Shown here: in pieces, positions 2,529-14,197 of the stretch
How positions within the stretch are numbered: position 1 is the first letter of the stretch
Layout of the letters: the number at the start of each line of letters is the position of its first letter
DNA from: an uncultured Oribacterium sp.
GTDB taxonomy: Bacteria; Bacillota; Clostridia; Lachnospirales; Lachnospiraceae
Direction of reading: 5' to 3'
Assembly: GCA_938030845.1 (NCBI GenBank)
Contig: CALHIC010000189.1
Coordinates: 1 to 14,376 of the forward strand
Length of the DNA stretch: 14,376 bases
Program-made: the position numbers and the translations under genes
The notes under the pieces: model-generated
Told to the model about the DNA's origin: nothing
The model's database searches: none
What the model saw: the letters and a program-made list of their open reading frames with translations, nothing else

Positions 2529-3629
2529 ATGGACAAGTTTAGAGTTTCTGCAAAGACGGTAGAAGAAGCGATTACGAAGGCAACCATCTCTTTAGGTTGT
2601 ACCTCAGACAGAATTTCCTACAATGTGATTGTACAGGGAAGCAACGGTTTATTCGGTATCGGAGCAAAGCCCTGGATTATCGAAGCCTGGGAAAAGGATG
2701 AAGCGGAAATCGCAAAAGAAAAGGTTGCAGCGGAAAAGCCCGCGGCAGTAGAGAAAGCGGCATTTGAAAAGAAGGAAGCGGAAGGAAAAAGGGAAAGCTC
2801 TTCTGTAGAGGAAAAGTCTCAGAGTTTTGAGAAAAGGGAAGAAAGAAAGGCTTCCGGGGAGGATAAATCATTTTCCCATAATGCTTCTTTGGAAAAGAAG
2901 GACGAAAAGAGAGAGAAGAAGTTTGAAAAGAAGGAAGGCTTTAAGGGCTTCAGCAGAGGAGGCTATGATCCTATCCCTGCACCAATCTCTTCCGCTCCTG
3001 TAAAGAGAGAAGAAAAGTCCTTTGAAGGAAGAAGTCCCGAGAAGAGAGAACTTACGCCCCTTTCCGAAGAGGAAATCGCAGCGGTAACTAAGGCTGCTTT
3101 AGAGTTCTTAAGCTCTGTATTTCAGGGTATGGCTATGGAAGTGGAGCTTCAGACAGAGTTTAGAAACAGCAGCAATGAGCTTTACATCAACCTGGTAGGA
3201 CCGGATATGGGCATCCTCATCGGAAAAAGAGGACAGACCCTGGATTCCTTACAGTACCTTTGCTCCTTGGTGGTGAATAAAAACCACGGGGATGAGTATC
3301 TTCGGGTAAAGCTGGATACGGAGGATTACCGTAAGAGAAGAGAGCAGACCTTAAGAAGTCTGGCTAAAAACATTGCCTACAAGGTAAAGAAGAATCGGAA
3401 ATCCGTTCATTTGGAGCCAATGAATCCTTATGAGAGAAGAATCATTCATGCCGCACTGCAAAGTGACAGTCAGGTTTCCACAAAATCCGAGGGAGAGGAT
3501 CCCTTCCGCCACGTGGTGATTTTCTGTAAAAATGGAGGAAAGTTCCAAAAGGATTTCCGCCACAAGGGAAACAGGATGAGAAGAGAGGACAGGAAAGAAG
3601 AAAAGAGAGAAGAAAAGAGCGAAGAATAA
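2529..3629 (+). CDS. jag: Jag/KhpB-type RNA-binding protein (Jag-N, KH and R3H domains)
   Basis: This 366-residue protein has three parts. A Jag-N domain (1-55) carries VEEAITKA and GLFGIGAKP. A long charged Lys/Glu linker covers about 56-175. The C-terminal RNA-binding module has a KH domain with the GKRG loop at 232-235 and an R3H domain with RRIIH at 303-307. Jag/KhpB binds many small RNAs and mRNAs in Gram-positive bacteria and affects cell division and envelope synthesis; this is family knowledge. The linker contains FSRGGYDPIPAP (141-152), which resembles the YidD C-terminus and stands out from the charged repeats around it. AGGGAG at 2516-2521 sets the start and sits in the loop of a small hairpin (2511-2515 with 2524-2528). 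The gene is 20 bases after yidC, a standard pairing. Confidence 0.95.
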   Translation: MDKFRVSAKTVEEAITKATISLGCTSDRISYNVIVQGSNGLFGIGAKPWIIEAWEKDEAEIAKEKVAAEKPAAVEKAAFEKKEAEGKRESSSVEEKSQSFEKREERKASGEDKSFSHNASLEKKDEKREKKFEKKEGFKGFSRGGYDPIPAPISSAPVKREEKSFEGRSPEKRELTPLSEEEIAAVTKAALEFLSSVFQGMAMEVELQTEFRNSSNELYINLVGPDMGILIGKRGQTLDSLQYLCSLVVNKNHGDEYLRVKLDTEDYRKRREQTLRSLAKNIAYKVKKNRKSVHLEPMNPYERRIIHAALQSDSQVSTKSEGEDPFRHVVIFCKNGGKFQKDFRHKGNRMRREDRKEEKREEKSEE

Positions 3630-3719
3630 GACTTTCTTGCACCCCATGGAAGAAATAAGAAGAATAATTAGTAAGTAAATTCATTCGGTAAGGGGAACAT
3701 ATTCAGTAAGAAGAAGTTG

Positions 3720-3745
3720 TCAAAAGAAGTCATCAAAAGAAGTCA
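3720..3745. repeat. Two tandem 13-bp repeats after jag
   Basis: TCAAAAGAAGTCA occurs twice back to back (3720-3732 and 3733-3745), followed by a decayed possible third unit beginning TAAAACG. The rest of the gap from the jag stop (3630) to 3776 shows no gene; it is A/G-rich, with a second loose echo (ATTCGGTAAG and ATTCAGTAAG near 3682-3710). Confidence 0.7.
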
Positions 3746-3776
3746 TAAAACGTAAGTTAAAGAATTGTGTGATATT

Positions 3777-5331: not shown

Positions 5332-7233
5332 ATGGCATTTTTAGAAGAACAGGTGGATATTGTAGTGGTGGGAGCAGGGCATGCAGGAGTGGAAGCGGCC
5401 CTGGTTTCCGCTAGGCGGGGGCATAAAACTCTTCTTTTTACCCTGAGCCCGGACAGCATTTCCATGATGGCCTGTAACCCCAATATCGGGGGAAGCTCCA
5501 AGGGGCATCTGGTCAGAGAATTGGATGCCCTGGGGGGAATGATGGGAAAGGTCTGCGACCAATCCTTTCTCCAGTCCAGGATGTTAAATAAGTCCAAGGG
5601 TCCGGCGGTACATTCCTTAAGAGCCCAGGCGGATAAGCAGGTCTATTCCCGGAATATGCGTCATCTTGTGGAAAATCAGGAGAATCTTCATATTCGGCAG
5701 GGAGAAATTGTTTCTCTACTGTGCAATGAGGAAAAGACGGAAATCCGCGGAGTTGTGAGCAGTACCGGAGCCAGATATTATGCCAAGGCAGTGCTGATTT
5801 GCACCGGAGTGTACTTGAATGCCCGCTGCATTTATGGAGAGGTTTCTGAAGAAACCGGGCCAAACGGTCTTCGCAGAGCTACAAAGCTGAGTCAGGCTCT
5901 TTTGGATTTAGGCTTCAGGCTACAGCGTTTTAAAACCGGAACCCCTGCCAGAGTGGATAGAAGGTCTCTGGATTTTAGCAAGATGGAAGTCCAGAAGGGA
6001 GATGTGCCTGTGGTGCCCTTCTCCTTTTCCACGGATCCTGCCAGTGTGCAAATTTCTCAGGAAGATTGCTACCTGACCTATACCTGTGAAGAAGGTCATG
6101 AGATTATTCGGGAAAATATTGACCGTTCCCCCATGTATAACGGGGTGATTCAGGGAACCGGCCCCAGATACTGCCCTTCCATCGAAGATAAGGTTATGAA
6201 GTTTCCAGAGAAAAATCGGCACCAGATTTTTGTGGAGCCGGAGGGAAGATACACCAACGAAATGTATCTTTCCGGTCTTTCCTCTTCTCTTCCGGAAGAC
6301 GTGCAAATGAGAATTCTTCGTACCATGGCAGGCTTTGAACAGGCGGAAATGGTGAGAACCGGCTATGCCATTGAATACGACTGCTTAAATTCTTTGGAAC
6401 TGGAAAATACCTTGGAAACAAAGAAAATTTCCGGCCTGTATTTTGCAGGACAAATGAACGGTTCCTCCGGCTATGAGGAGGCGGCGGTACAGGGCTTTAT
6501 GGCGGGAATAAATGCGGTACAAAAAATTGAAGGAAAAGAGCCCTTTGTATTAGATCGTTCCGAGGCCTATATCGGGGTTTTGATTGATGACCTGGTGACC
6601 AAGGAAAACAAAGAGCCTTATAGAATGATGACCAGCAGGGCGGAGTATCGTCTTCTGCTTCGACAGGACAATGCGGACCTTCGTCTTCGGGAAAAGGGCT
6701 ATGCTCTGGGGATGGTTTCAGAGGAGGAAATCAAGGCTACCAGGGAAAAGCAGGAAGCCATCCAAAAAGAGCTTCGCCGTATGGAAACTACCTATATCGG
6801 GGCAAATGCGGAGAATAACAGGATTTTGGAAAGCATTTCCTCTTCTCCTATCCAGTCCGGTATTTCTTTGAGAGAGCTTTGTAAGAGACCGGAGTGTAAT
6901 TATCAAAACATTGCTCCCTTGGATCCGGAAAGACCTTCCCTTTCTCCCTTCATACAGGAAGAAGTGGAAATCGAAATTAAATATGAGGGCTATATCAAGA
7001 GACAGATTCAACAGGTGGAAGCCTTTAAGAAAATGGAGCGGAAAAAGCTGCCAAAGGATATCTGCTATCATGATATTCACAACCTCCGTCTGGAAGCCAG
7101 ACAGAAGCTGGATTTGATTCGTCCGGAAAATATGGGTATGGCCTCCCGCATCAGCGGTGTCAGCCCTGCGGATTTATCGGTGCTTTTGATTTATCTGGAG
7201 AAGGAAAAGGAAAGAAGAAAGGAAGAGAAATGA
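5332..7233 (+). CDS. mnmG: tRNA uridine-5-carboxymethylaminomethyl(34) synthesis enzyme MnmG
   Basis: This is a 633-residue FAD enzyme (GidA) that, with MnmE, uses methylene-THF and glycine or ammonium to install the xm5 group at U34. Visible signatures are the dinucleotide-binding VVVGAGHAGVEAA (11-23), CNPNIGG with Cys48, GHLVRELDALGG (58-69), NKSKGPAVHSLRAQADK (86-102), RYCPSIEDK with Cys281, and GQMNGSSGYEEAAVQG (373-388). The C-terminal helical region that binds MnmE and tRNA runs from about 550. The short loop usually written GGTAKG or GGIGKG is GGSSKG here, a mild variant. AGAGGG at 5323-5328 supports the ATG. Its stop overlaps the rsmG start by four bases (ATGA), indicating translational coupling. 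Confidence 0.97.
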   Translation: MAFLEEQVDIVVVGAGHAGVEAALVSARRGHKTLLFTLSPDSISMMACNPNIGGSSKGHLVRELDALGGMMGKVCDQSFLQSRMLNKSKGPAVHSLRAQADKQVYSRNMRHLVENQENLHIRQGEIVSLLCNEEKTEIRGVVSSTGARYYAKAVLICTGVYLNARCIYGEVSEETGPNGLRRATKLSQALLDLGFRLQRFKTGTPARVDRRSLDFSKMEVQKGDVPVVPFSFSTDPASVQISQEDCYLTYTCEEGHEIIRENIDRSPMYNGVIQGTGPRYCPSIEDKVMKFPEKNRHQIFVEPEGRYTNEMYLSGLSSSLPEDVQMRILRTMAGFEQAEMVRTGYAIEYDCLNSLELENTLETKKISGLYFAGQMNGSSGYEEAAVQGFMAGINAVQKIEGKEPFVLDRSEAYIGVLIDDLVTKENKEPYRMMTSRAEYRLLLRQDNADLRLREKGYALGMVSEEEIKATREKQEAIQKELRRMETTYIGANAENNRILESISSSPIQSGISLRELCKRPECNYQNIAPLDPERPSLSPFIQEEVEIEIKYEGYIKRQIQQVEAFKKMERKKLPKDICYHDIHNLRLEARQKLDLIRPENMGMASRISGVSPADLSVLLIYLEKEKERRKEEK

Positions 7234-9084: not shown

Positions 9085-9125
9085 AAAGCGGAAATGGAAT
9101 ACAATTCATAGCAAGCAAGGATATA

Positions 9126-9202
9126 AATATTCTATACGAATATCCTATACGAAATCTTATACGAATATCTTATACAAATATCTTATACAAATATCCTATA
9201 CA
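9126..9202. repeat. Six tandem 13-bp iteron-like repeats upstream of parA
   Basis: Units matching AATATCYTATACR are seen at 9126-9138 (AATATTCTATACG), 9139-9151, 9152-9163 (12 bases, one T missing), 9164-9176, 9177-9189 and 9190-9202. A truncated AATAG unit follows. The first three end in CG and the last three in CA, so the array has two sub-types. It begins 41 bases after parS and lies in the predicted parA 5' leader. Function unknown; binding by a protein, an unwinding-prone AT tract, or neutral slippage are all possible. Confidence 0.9.
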
Positions 9203-9255
9203 AATAGCTTGTTATGGAATAGATTAAGGCAGAAAAAGAAAGGCTAAGGGGTCTT

Positions 9256-10020
9256 ATGGCGAAGATTATTACAATTGCAAACCAAAAGGGGGGTGTGGGA
9301 AAAACCACCACCGCTGTCAATTTGGCGGCTTCCTTAGCGGAAGCAAAACAGAAAGTTTTGCTTTTGGACTTTGATCCCCAGGGAAATGCGGGAAGCGGAA
9401 TCGGTATTCGGGAGGAAGAAATCAGCATTTACCGAATTCTTAGCGGAGAGTTTCCCATAGAAAAGGGCATTGTTCGGGAGGCTTTGGAAAATCTGGATTT
9501 TATTGCCGCAGACAGGAATCTTTCCGCCATGGATGCAGAGCTTGCAGAGGAGGAAAATAAAAACTTCTTATTAAAGGAAGCTCTGGAGAATATCCAAAAG
9601 GACTATGATTATATCTTTATTGATTGTCCTCCCAGCCTTGGTACCCTTACGGTAAATGCTTTAACGGCTTCTCACTCCGTCCTGATTCCCATTCAGTGCG
9701 AATACTATGCATTGGAAGGACTTAGCCAAATGACGGATACCATTTCCATGGTAAAGGACGCCTTGAATCCGGATTTAACAATCGAGGGAATTTTATTTAC
9801 TATGTATGACAGCAGAAATCTTCTGTCTCAGGAGGTGGTAAAAGCGGTGCAGGAGCATTTTTCGGATCCTATTTTTAAGACGATTATTCCCAGAAATGTT
9901 CGTCTGGCGGAGGCTCCCAGCCACGGTCTTCCTATCTCCCTTTACGACAACAGCTCTACAGGGGCGGAGGCCTACAGAAAGCTTGCAGCGGAGATTCTGG
10001 AAAAGGACATAGCGTATTAA
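9256..10020 (+). CDS. parA: Chromosome partitioning ATPase ParA (Soj)
   Basis: A 254-residue ParA/MinD-type P-loop ATPase that dimerises on DNA with ATP and is stimulated by ParB, moving or separating origins and, in Bacillus, controlling DnaA. Motifs: deviant Walker A QKGGVGKTT (10-18) with the signature Lys, Walker A' LLLDFDPQGNAG (35-46), and Walker B YIFIDCPPSLG followed by NALTAS. The late segment PRNVRLAEAPSHGLPISLYD is highly typical of chromosomal Soj proteins. AAGGGG at 9246-9251 supports the ATG. The gene is complete and of normal length. Its last 42 bases are copied in decayed form twice downstream, see the repeat entry. Confidence 0.97.
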   Translation: MAKIITIANQKGGVGKTTTAVNLAASLAEAKQKVLLLDFDPQGNAGSGIGIREEEISIYRILSGEFPIEKGIVREALENLDFIAADRNLSAMDAELAEEENKNFLLKEALENIQKDYDYIFIDCPPSLGTLTVNALTASHSVLIPIQCEYYALEGLSQMTDTISMVKDALNPDLTIEGILFTMYDSRNLLSQEVVKAVQEHFSDPIFKTIIPRNVRLAEAPSHGLPISLYDNSSTGAEAYRKLAAEILEKDIAY

Positions 10021-10104
10021 AAGCATGCTGCGGGGATTTTGGAAAAGGATGTAGCTGACTAAAAGCTTATAGTTGAGATTTTCGCAAAGAATATCATTTA
10101 CTAA
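9979..10104 (+). repeat. 42-bp tandem repeats of the parA 3' end, each ending in TAA
   Basis: The final 42 bases of parA (9979-10020, peptide KLAAEILEKDIAY and TAA) are followed directly by 10021-10062 (KHAAGILEKDVAD, TAA) and 10063-10104 (KLIVEIFAKNIIY, TAA). By hand alignment copy 2 matches copy 1 at 33 of 42 positions and copy 3 at 28 of 42, without any indel. Several differences are synonymous (GCA/GCT, CTG/TTG, GAC/GAT, GCG/GCT). The stretch 10105-10146 may be a further, badly decayed unit, ending GGAAAGAACATAAGCTTAA. No start codon with a ribosome site opens the extra copies, so they are not counted as genes. Confidence 0.88.
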
Positions 10105-11058: not shown

Positions 11059-11565
11059 ATGGAAGTATTGCTACAACATGGTAAATTGGTTTTCGTACTG
11101 GTTTCCACATTAATTTCGCTCATTTCTCTCTTTTTCGCTCTGAAGGCAGAGGCCAAGTATAAAAAGCTTTATCGCCAGTATGATTATTTCATGCGGGGGA
11201 AGGATGCGGAAACTCTGGAGGATTATTTTATCGAGCTGCAGAGACATGTGGAAAAGCTGGAGGACCTGGAAGAAGAACAGCGGGAAATGCTTAAGATTTT
11301 ACATAAGAATATCAGACGTTCCTTCCAAAAATGGGGTATCATTCGCTATAATGCTTATGGCGGCATGGGAGGAAACCTCTCCTTTGCCTTGGCAATTTTG
11401 AATTATGATAACAGCGGCTTTATCTTTAATTCTGTTCATGCCAAAGAAGGGGGCTTCCTCTATATTAAAGAGGTGGAGGAAGGCAGCACTTCCGTGGAGC
11501 TTGGAGCGGAGGAAAAGCTGGCTCTGGAAGAGGCCTTAGGCTATAGGAAGAAGCCCCAGACTTAG
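11059..11565 (+). CDS. DUF4446 family single-pass membrane protein
   Basis: The 168-residue protein has one N-terminal membrane helix (about 8-28), then a charged, probably coiled-coil region (31-90) containing the family-like FMRGKDAETLED. A conserved core follows, KWGIIRYNAYGGMGGNLSFALAILNYDNSGFIFNSVHAKEG (91-131), with a variable tail. This matches my knowledge of DUF4446, a family of unknown function often found beside parB in Clostridia. Its ATG follows the parB TAA without a gap, and AAGGGGAGAAG inside the parB end provides the ribosome site, so it is translationally coupled to parB. A role with the partition machinery or envelope is only a contextual inference. The gene tail GYRKKPQT is echoed in the repeats that follow. 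Confidence 0.88.
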   Translation: MEVLLQHGKLVFVLVSTLISLISLFFALKAEAKYKKLYRQYDYFMRGKDAETLEDYFIELQRHVEKLEDLEEEQREMLKILHKNIRRSFQKWGIIRYNAYGGMGGNLSFALAILNYDNSGFIFNSVHAKEGGFLYIKEVEEGSTSVELGAEEKLALEEALGYRKKPQT

Positions 11566-11688
11566 GAAAGATTCAGAGGTAGGAAAAAGCCCCAGACTTA
11601 GAAAAGATTCAGAGATAGGAAAAAGCCCCGGACTTAGGAAAGATTCAGAGATAGAAAAAAGCCTTAGGGCATAGGAAGACCGGATTAG
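11544..11688 (+). repeat. 36-bp tandem repeats of the DUF4446 gene tail, each ending in TAG
   Basis: The last 21 bases of the gene (RKKPQT and TAG) recur in frame. After the stop come 11566-11601 (ERFRGRKKPQT, TAG), 11602-11637 (KRFRDRKKPRT, TAG), 11638-11667 (ERFRDRKKP, TAG, six bases shorter) and a short remnant 11668-11688 (GIGRPD, TAG). The period is 36 bp, equal to 12 codons, and all five stops including the gene's own are TAG in one reading frame. The copies are much more alike than those after parA, implying more recent amplification. Nearly the whole gap to the next gene consists of these units. Confidence 0.92.
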
Positions 11689-11704
11689 GAAGAAGGGTTA
11701 AACT

Positions 11705-14197
11705 TTGTTAAAACGACTAGGCGAAAGTAAACAGAAGTTTTGGAATAAAAGAAGAAGCAGAGCTTTGGTATTGGGCGGCATTTTTTTTGTCGCTCTGCTT
11801 TTTTATTTCTTCCATTCTTATCGTTCCATGGATCAAAACAATAGAATTTATGCCAACATGGGAAAAAGCAAATTACCGGTGCTTCATGTGCTTTCCTCCG
11901 GAAAAGAAATCAATCCTCTCTACGGCTATTTGCAGGAAATGGATGATGTCTTTGTGCGGGACAGCCTGACCTTACTTCCGGAAAACCGGCAGTGTGAGTT
12001 GATTTTGGAGGAGGGAAAGTCCGCCCCTAAGTCTGTGCATTATGATATTCGCTCCCTGGATGGGGCAGAGCTTTTGGAAAAGGACCAGGAAGGAAGCTTA
12101 CAGGAGGAAGGGGGAAGGGTTCACATTATCCTTCCTATCCAAAACTTGATGAAGGAAGGAAAGGAGTACCTTCTTCGTCTACGACTGGACCTGGGAGAAA
12201 GCAGCGTCTATTACTATACCCGCGTTTTACTGGGGAAGGAGGATATGGGACAGGAAGTTCTGAGTCTTGCGGAGGATTTTACCAGAAAGAGCTTTTCCAA
12301 ATCGGAGGCCAAGAGCCTTAGCACTTATCTGGAAAGTGATGATACCATGGATAACAGTTCTCTTGCCCATGTGAATCTGCATTCCTCCTTCCAGCAGATA
12401 ACCTGGGGAGACAGCGGCATGGAAATGGACGGGGAGCCGGAGATTCGTTTGAAGGAGCTGGACGGTACCATGGCATTAGTGCAAATCCAGTATGCCTCCA
12501 GAGCCACGGATCAGGACGGTAATGTGCACCGTTTCTTTAATGAAGATAACTATGTGATGCGATATGATCCTCAAAGAATTTTCCTGATGGACTTTGACCG
12601 AAGAACCAAGGAACTTTTTGACGGACAGAATTATCGTTACAAGGATAAGAAGATTTTACTGGGTGTGGGGGAAAAGAGCGATATTGAGGCCCTGCAATCC
12701 GCTACCAAAAATTTCTATGCCTTTACCGATAAGAATACCCTTTACCGTGCCGACGGAGAAGGAAAGGGCAATATGAACCGGATTTTTTCCTATTCAGAGG
12801 GGGAGAAGTCGGTGGAGAAGGAGAGTTTTACCCACGGTATTCATATTTTGAGTGTGGACACCAACGGGGATGTGGATTTTCTGGTATATGGCTATATTCG
12901 AAGGGGCCGACACGAGGGTTATACCGGCATTGTCTTTTATACCTATGACAATTCAGAAAATACGGTGGTGGAGAATTTCTTCCTGCCCTTAAAGGCCAGC
13001 AAGGAAAAACTGGAGGAAAACATTCAAAATCTTTCCTACTATGCGGACAACCGGATGTTCTACATTTTCTTTGCCGGCAGTATCTATGGGGTGGATACCA
13101 ACAGTTTCGAGGTTATTACGCTGTCTACCGGTCTTTCGGAAAATGATTTTGCTTCCAGCAGCAGTAAGCAATTTATTGCTTACGGAGAAAAGAACAATGA
13201 CGGAGAATTGCACAGGGAAATTGCCTTTAGAAATCTCCACGGAGATAAGAATTTGAGCATTTCCGAAGATGGAAAACGACTGAAGGTAATCGGCTTTCTG
13301 GGGGAGGATTTCCTCTACGGCTTACAGGATAGTGATAAGGATCAGATTTGGAATCCTCAGGGAGAAGTGCCGGTATCGGAGATTCGCATAGTTGGGGAAG
13401 ACATGAAAACCAAGCTTTCCTACAAAAAGGATGGCCTGTATTTTGCAAATTTCAGTCTGGAAGGAAATCAGCTTCGATTTGATGAATACCAGCTGCAGGA
13501 CGGGGAATATCAGTATGTGGGGAAGGACAGTTTGCTTTCCAACAAAGAAATCAAAGATGAAAGAAAGATTGCCTTGGAATCCAAGGTTCTGGGAAATATC
13601 GGAAAACTGCAGTACCTTCCCATGGTAGGTAAGGCGGTTAGCCAGTTTAGTCTGCATTACCCGGAAAAGTTCTCTATTGAAAAGGCAGGCTCTATTGAGC
13701 TTCCGGGAGAAACCAAGGAAGAGAATATACTTTTCTCCGCCTATAGCCTTGGGCATTATCAGGGAGAGTTCTCCACCATGGAGGCGGCCTATAAGAAGAT
13801 TTATGACCAGTTCGGTTATGTGGTGGATCAGAAGGAGCGGATTGTTTGGAATAGAACAGACCGTCCCAATACCGCTAACCTGAAGATTCAGGAAGAGGCA
13901 ATCAGCAATTTTGTTTCCCAAATCCCGGAGCTTCGAAGAGCTATGGACTATGATAACGGCGTGCTTCTAAATCTTTATGGTATGGATCTGCACGCTGCCC
14001 TCTACTATGTGGGCAAGGGCTATCCTCTGATGATTCGTATGGAGGATCAATGGGAGTTAATCAGCGGCTACAACAATAGCTTTATTACGGTATATACCCT
14101 AGGAGGAAGCAGCATACCCAGAAACATCAGTAGAGAAGAAGCTATCGCCAGATATGAGAAGGTGCATAATGCTTTTTACGGATATTTGAAGAAGTAG
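11705..14197 (+). CDS. Large membrane-anchored extracytoplasmic protein, function unknown
   Basis: This 830-residue protein has a basic N-terminus (KRLGESKQKFWNKRRSR), one membrane helix at about 20-39 and a long exterior domain, a type II topology without lipobox. I cannot name its family with certainty. The middle (about 300-550) is rich in beta-type segments and carries SVDTNGDVDFLVYG (383-396), an acidic loop like the calcium-binding turn of VCBS/FG-GAP propeller repeats. The last 155 residues, with YVVDQKERIVW and LHAALYYVGKGYPLMIRMEDQWELISGYN, resemble the end of a C39-like peptidase fold, but the expected His before the GY strand is absent, so it would be non-catalytic. The start is TTG with AAGAAGGG (11690-11697) upstream. 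The gene follows the DUF4446 repeats and is in a different frame from them. Confidence 0.85.
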   Translation: MLKRLGESKQKFWNKRRSRALVLGGIFFVALLFYFFHSYRSMDQNNRIYANMGKSKLPVLHVLSSGKEINPLYGYLQEMDDVFVRDSLTLLPENRQCELILEEGKSAPKSVHYDIRSLDGAELLEKDQEGSLQEEGGRVHIILPIQNLMKEGKEYLLRLRLDLGESSVYYYTRVLLGKEDMGQEVLSLAEDFTRKSFSKSEAKSLSTYLESDDTMDNSSLAHVNLHSSFQQITWGDSGMEMDGEPEIRLKELDGTMALVQIQYASRATDQDGNVHRFFNEDNYVMRYDPQRIFLMDFDRRTKELFDGQNYRYKDKKILLGVGEKSDIEALQSATKNFYAFTDKNTLYRADGEGKGNMNRIFSYSEGEKSVEKESFTHGIHILSVDTNGDVDFLVYGYIRRGRHEGYTGIVFYTYDNSENTVVENFFLPLKASKEKLEENIQNLSYYADNRMFYIFFAGSIYGVDTNSFEVITLSTGLSENDFASSSSKQFIAYGEKNNDGELHREIAFRNLHGDKNLSISEDGKRLKVIGFLGEDFLYGLQDSDKDQIWNPQGEVPVSEIRIVGEDMKTKLSYKKDGLYFANFSLEGNQLRFDEYQLQDGEYQYVGKDSLLSNKEIKDERKIALESKVLGNIGKLQYLPMVGKAVSQFSLHYPEKFSIEKAGSIELPGETKEENILFSAYSLGHYQGEFSTMEAAYKKIYDQFGYVVDQKERIVWNRTDRPNTANLKIQEEAISNFVSQIPELRRAMDYDNGVLLNLYGMDLHAALYYVGKGYPLMIRMEDQWELISGYNNSFITVYTLGGSSIPRNISREEAIARYEKVHNAFYGYLKK

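Follow-up and report, generated by a model that had tools for sequence, protein, structure and literature searches.

Why should the stop codon of a gene lie inside a tandem repeat, and does such a repeat serve the protein, the neighbouring gene or neither? The question is raised by the 3′ end of a DUF4446 gene in an uncultured Oribacterium sp., an oral bacterium akin to Oribacterium sinus, from which a 14,376-nt stretch (contig CALHIC010000189.1) was analysed as a whole and is called the window hereafter. The gene (11059..11565, plus strand, 168 aa) was defined by its open reading frame and by a Pfam match to PF14584 (149 bits for a cut-off of 27.4), and it ends in RKKPQT followed by TAG. Over this stop codon runs a 36-bp tandem array (11543..11663, plus strand) for which TRF reports 3.4 copies, a score of 207 and 91% matches. 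Unit 1 (11544..11579) consists of the gene's own tail, its TAG stop and the 14 nt beyond. Unit 2 (11580..11615) is identical to it at 33/36 positions, and unit 3 (11616..11651) agrees with unit 1 at 33/36 and with unit 2 at 34/36 positions, so that the full units are 92-94% identical pairwise. They are followed on the same strand by a truncated fourth unit and a remnant (11652..11686). The first 12 bases of the fourth unit match unit 3 at 11/12 positions and the sequence diverges afterwards, while the remnant, compared by eye, shares 17/19 bases with a segment of the gene end that immediately precedes unit 1, a likeness that hints at an additional event in a different register.

A sequence-only reading of this DNA had counted, beyond the gene's own tail, three more close copies plus a remnant. 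The array is real and the remnant is present, but the further full copies are two, the fourth unit being truncated. The same reading had placed the copies in the frame of the gene with a 36-bp period, and this proved correct: the DUF4446 frame runs through the array as RKKPQT-stop-ERFRG, RKKPQT-stop-KRFRD, RKKPRT-stop-ERFRD and RKKP-stop-GIGRPD-stop.

The array is far beyond chance. Indeed, when the window was shuffled 100 times (first-order), TRF scores peaked at 56 (mean best 38), to be compared with 207 for the real array. Its head-to-tail, near-identical units also fall within the range of about 10-100 bp that characterizes minisatellites. We rejected a CRISPR array because the units are contiguous, the entire 36 bp repeats and there are no unique spacers. 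We likewise rejected a structured RNA element or a terminator at the array: an Rfam search of the window at gathering scores gave no match, and the array RNA folds more weakly than its shuffles (z +1.98, with a fold at least as good in 198 of 200 shuffles). A terminator-like site at 11773-11795 sits within the next gene. Finally, an assembly artefact of the window is very unlikely, since the full units differ at 2-3 positions, where false repetition would have given identical copies, and since similar arrays are found in independent assemblies.

The nearest named genome is that of O. sinus DSM 17245 (G001, locus L001), in which the protein is 99% identical and which shares with the window four large DNA blocks of 90-95% identity. 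In DSM 17245 the end of the DUF4446 gene, with the same tail and stop, is single-copy and free of any array; this comparison rests on the sequence itself, the automatic alignment being poor at the far end of the site. The copy number thus differs between related genomes (3.4 in the window, 1 in DSM 17245), as it does in VNTRs. Among the 17 Oribacterium genomes searched, 14 have the gene, and in none of these does an array with a TRF score of at least 50 start within 60 nt past the stop; the best sub-threshold array at these ends has a 14-bp period, 2.4 copies and a score of 43. In the wider family, 74 of the 80 genomes searched gave a match and, among the 30 loci returned, a single one (L111) has an array at the DUF4446 stop, with a 14-bp unit unrelated to the 36-bp one. 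Comparing two genomes, one may invoke contraction in DSM 17245 instead of expansion in the window, but the more distant relatives are likewise devoid of the array. Given its absence from DSM 17245 and from the other Oribacterium gene ends, the most likely place of origin of the array is the branch of the window itself. We also noticed by eye, after the DUF4446 gene of Clostridium sp. KNHs205 (L009, ~6440-6680), an unrelated run of AT-rich repeats of about 15 bp.

The site in DSM 17245 offers a possible starting point for the array. Its 66 bp contain a sole 9-bp direct repeat, AGGAAGAAG, with one copy in the RKK codons and the other in the run of purines that precedes the TTG start codon of the downstream gene, and the spacing of the two copies is exactly 36 bp, which is the period of the array. 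In 20000 first-order shuffles of the 66-bp site, a 9-bp repeat occurred at spacing 36 in 19 and at any spacing of at least 10 in 883. If this site is taken to stand for the ancestor, the AGGAAGAAG pair is the short direct repeat, spaced by one period, that slippage would call for at the birthplace of an array. From the anatomy of the site we infer that the 36-bp array is a young minisatellite of the VNTR type, formed by replication slippage or short-homology recombination, and we give this reading a probability of roughly 0.85. In a DSM 17245-like ancestor, the AGGAAGAAG in the RKK codons would have mispaired with the AGGAAGAAG located 36 bp downstream, before the next start, and the tail, the stop codon and the spacer would have been duplicated together as a single 36-bp unit. 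Slippage between the 36-bp repeats would then have multiplied this unit, as the near identity of the units suggests. In the sequence as it stands, the protein is unaltered because the stop of the first unit is preserved. At the far end of the array, the next gene still has AGGAAGAAG in front of it, and the array therefore does no more than widen the gap. Such tolerance may explain why arrays of this kind can span stop codons, with no role for the reading frame. Slippage between short repeats is also the mechanism proposed, in the excerpts of the two papers considered here, for small variable segments (PMC2884548) and for Wolbachia VNTRs (PMC3287509). One observation speaks against the slippage account: compared by eye, the DSM 17245 spacer agrees with the second half of the unit at just 8/17 positions, so that DSM 17245 does not represent the true sequence before duplication.

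The gene that follows the array (11705..14197, plus strand, an open reading frame of 830 aa with a TTG start) has no Pfam or NCBIfam match. Seven nucleotides before its start lies AGGAAGAAGGG (11687..11697, plus strand), from its position a putative ribosome-binding site, whose first 9 bases are those of the RKK codons at 11545-11553. A frame with a similar start, a membrane-helix stretch, was seen by eye downstream of DUF4446 at Oribacterium gene ends. The gap between the two genes measures 139 nt in the window versus 33 nt in DSM 17245, in line with the earlier proposal that the array sets the distance to the next gene. It could then be asked whether selection keeps the array because it uncouples or tunes the translation of the 830-aa gene. 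In the relatives the two genes are close or overlapping: of the 13 Oribacterium besides DSM 17245, 10 have the start of the second gene overlapping the DUF4446 stop and 3 have it 2-15 nt farther on (by eye). Translation of the first gene may there drive that of the second, and the array separates them by its 139-nt gap. Furthermore, the row of seven AGGA(A/G) words in 11545-11687, which ends immediately ahead of the TTG, could keep ribosomes close to the true start; the weak folding of the array RNA and the lack of any ATG, GTG or TTG within 11566-11704 are consistent with this account. However, the gap of DSM 17245 is already 33 nt without an array, a purine-rich composition yields by itself both AGGA words and weak folding, and many other gene ends carry arrays of unrelated sequence. 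We thus regard a selected role in translation as improbable.

In its place, although not in its nature, the array resembles the MIRUs, described in the excerpted source as repeats between co-directional genes at stop/start signals, apparently mobile and with an ORF of their own coupled to the next gene (PMC12548453). Unlike the MIRUs as portrayed in that excerpt, the 36-bp unit derives from the local gene, and its gap, being free of start codons, holds no ORF of its own that could be coupled to the next gene. A dispersed repeat of the MIRU type was rejected as well: the search of DSM 17245 with the 36-bp unit gave 14 matches at E values up to 10, and a single site, the homologous gene end, below E 0.1.

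The reading of the array as a minisatellite can be set beside the other arrays of the window, which carries parA, parB and the DUF4446 gene, all with Pfam matches, and genes that we take from their translations to be rnpA, yidC, jag, mnmE, mnmG and rsmG. As the sequence-only reading had noted, a second gene has a stop-capped array: parA carries at its 3′ end (9978..10104, plus strand) repeated 42-bp units ending in TAA, with 2.1 copies according to TRF (9978-10066) and a diverged third unit. All three units of the window end in TAA. DSM 17245 has four units, the last of which corresponds to the last unit of the window (37/42 identical), and the parA-parB gap amounts to 165 nt in the window and 207 nt in DSM 17245, a difference of exactly one 42-nt unit. 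Upstream of parA, an AT-rich 13-bp array (9121-9210, TRF) has 6.7 copies, with about three degenerate copies in DSM 17245 (by eye). Another 13-bp array, between jag and mnmE (3711-3750, TRF), exceeds its DSM 17245 counterpart by one unit according to the alignment read by eye. A 12-bp array (3596-3631) reaches 2 nt beyond the jag stop and has the same length in the DSM 17245 alignment, which counts against the slippage account. Altogether, four of the five window arrays with a TRF score of at least 50 differ in copy number from DSM 17245.

The sequence-only reading had gone further and proposed a process recurrent in this genome, for which the two stop-capped arrays of the window should not be the sole cases. 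A scan of sampled DNA from O. sinus DSM 17245 (~794 kb) and O. parvum ACB1 (G002, locus L002; 400 kb) found more of them and upheld this proposal. Genes were called as longest ORFs, not with a trained gene finder. A strict count considered periods of 7-60, TRF scores of at least 50 and ORFs of at least 100 aa, and left out longer arrays, a CRISPR of G003 and six arrays of G043 with shared sequence; a loose count considered TRF scores of at least 50, periods of 7-200 and ORFs of at least 60 aa. In the strict count, stop-spanning arrays were found at 19 of 617 genes in O. sinus and 8 of 312 in O. parvum, versus 1/162 in G003, 0/340 in G010, 0/151 in G017, 0/364 in G043 and 0/333 in G087 (200 kb were sampled for each of G003 and G017). 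The two species therefore total 27/929 and the five other sampled genomes 1/1350 (Fisher P = 4e-10), with the reservation that O. sinus and O. parvum are sisters in the DUF4446 tree, so that this excess is that of one lineage, genomes and not genes being the independent units. A comparison of the 36-bp unit with other noncoding arrays (144 in all) brought out no sequence in common, a further point against a dispersed family.

The loose count narrows what can be concluded. It gave stop-spanning arrays at 25/720 genes in O. sinus, 9/377 in O. parvum, 1/375 in G010, 1/417 in G043 and 0/362 in G087, and also at 12/205 in G003 and 3/182 in G017. The G003 cases come mostly from a CRISPR-like array with small false ORFs; this array (L198, contig 12, ~172-178 kb, repeat of ~33 bp) had inflated the first count. 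Per 10 kb of noncoding DNA, the loose count of noncoding arrays was 8.9 in O. sinus, 8.0 in O. parvum, 0.8 in G010, 2.8 in G043 and 0 in G087, with 9.3 in G003 and 8.1 in G017; Markov-shuffled controls contained 5, 2, 3, 1 and 4 arrays for O. sinus, O. parvum, G010, G043 and G087, respectively. The strict densities were 6.5 in O. sinus, 6.8 in O. parvum and 3.9 in G017. For noncoding arrays as a whole, the excess of O. sinus and O. parvum over G017 thus holds only in the strict count and, given the loose figures of G017, the excess of the lineage is clear just for short-unit, stop-spanning arrays.

Do these arrays prefer stops to starts? In the strict count of the five Oribacterium samples, 26 arrays touched stops and 3 touched starts, two touching both. 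In the loose count, the numbers were 25 to 10 in O. sinus (four touching both, P 0.017) and 9 to 4 in O. parvum (P 0.27), becoming 16 to 7 (P 0.09) and 7 to 3 (P 0.34) when at least 9 coding bases were required. G017 gave 3 to 3 in the loose count and G043 0 to 3 in the strict one. In view of these figures, the preference for stops is not firm. Selection against start-spanning duplications would be a simple reading of the excess at stops: a duplication over a stop would be tolerated because the first protein stays whole, while one over a start may disturb initiation.

Two further claims of the sequence-only reading concerned the reading frame, and neither was supported. First, a period that is a multiple of three was thought significant, and the absence of such a preference elsewhere had been named as the result that would count against it. 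This is what we found: in the strict count of the five Oribacterium samples, the periods of stop-spanning arrays are distributed 12/8/8 modulo three (P = 0.32 in a test for over-represented multiples of three), and in the loose count 9/7/9 in O. sinus and 3/3/3 in O. parvum. Taking all noncoding arrays of the two species gives 43/37/27 (P = 0.15). Arrays within genes of O. sinus and O. parvum have a period that is a multiple of three in 55 of 68 cases, as selection on coding sequence would produce. With no multiple-of-three preference among stop-spanning periods, there is no sign that frame-keeping by the 36-bp array is more than a coincidence or that the frame has a role. Second, a single stop mutation was said to let the protein lengthen unit by unit. 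Among the closest relatives, the five whose C-terminus is complete (P0001-P0004 and P0088) all end at the same place and none is lengthened, in a survey of 12 proteins out of the 120 listed among 870 matches, each standing for a 90%-identity cluster; P0083 is without its C-terminus, and the tails of the more distant P0007 (199 aa) and P0009 (184 aa) are free of repeated RKKPQT. An in-frame C-terminal extension module was consequently rejected on the distribution of periods and on the absence of lengthening in these five relatives. A related reading would see in the array a stop-capped reserve, from which readthrough, frameshift or stop loss extends the protein in 12-residue steps. The period of 36 does preserve the frame and, by eye, another frame is open through the units (G-R/K-SPRLRKDSE-V/I), but the shared end point of the five relatives and the disregard for frame of the periods at other gene ends make such a reserve scarcely credible.

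The 36-bp array is thus an ordinary minisatellite by origin and behaviour, and the interest lies not in the array itself but in the surplus of arrays at the gene ends of a single lineage. As a tentative reading, which we consider possible although rather unlikely, the O. sinus / O. parvum lineage would have a raised rate of small duplications, surviving mainly across stops because both neighbours stay intact there, with the loss of a DNA-processing function behind it. The candidate is the SbcCD nuclease, and that its loss in this lineage caused the many small tandem arrays has, in our view, little probability. SbcD (TIGR00619) is above its cut-off in 14 of the 17 Oribacterium genomes and below it in O. 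sinus, O. parvum and G015. For SbcC (TIGR00618), none of the 17 exceeds the cut-off and the contrast rests on E values, which are 3e-38 or better in the same 14, ~1e-5 in O. parvum and G015, and without a match in O. sinus. Judged on whole genomes, these three thus apparently lack SbcD and, with less certainty, SbcC, unlike the other 14. Among the five Oribacterium samples, the strict densities of noncoding arrays per 10 kb are 6.5 and 6.8 without SbcCD versus 2.5, 0.3 and 3.9 with it. On the other hand, G017 has SbcCD and is equally dense in the loose count. G043, of another genus, has no match to the SbcC Walker B and its SbcD is below the cut-off, yet it has 0.9 arrays per 10 kb in the strict count (2.2 before removal of the six arrays with shared sequence), and SbcCD loss is therefore not sufficient. 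In addition, two proteins of G015 exceed the PF13558 cut-off, which makes its SbcC-like absence uncertain, and O. sinus and O. parvum, as sisters, represent one event. A loss of MutS or RecJ was rejected, each protein having matches in 17/17 genomes, 16/17 of them over the cut-off and including O. sinus and O. parvum.

Within the literature collection searched, no paper turned up on tandem repeats in Oribacterium sinus and none on intergenic stop-codon tandem repeats in Lachnospiraceae. Like bacterial minisatellites and intergenic VNTRs, the 36-bp array is built of nearly identical units, tens of bases long and arranged head to tail, and relatives differ in the number of copies. It differs from them in two respects: a gene's final codons and stop form part of the unit, and the period coincides with the distance between two occurrences of a 9-bp word, one in the tail codons and one in the pre-start stretch. 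The closest genome-wide parallel that we found is Ehrlichia ruminantium, for which the excerpted report describes active expansion and contraction of noncoding tandem repeats (PMC10710844); compared with what that excerpt presents, the Oribacterium arrays are many and short, with mostly unrelated units that often lie over stops.

The site described here presents a bacterial minisatellite in two states, with the array and without it, and also a short repeat spaced in keeping with the period. In the sampled stretches of the lineage, a stop-spanning array is found at about 1 gene in 34 (strict count). If the raised-rate reading is true, these genomes would be a natural record of the birth of minisatellites seeded by microhomology. 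Given the two states of the site and the high frequency of such arrays, this lineage could serve to study how arrays are born and how they affect gene spacing and translational coupling.
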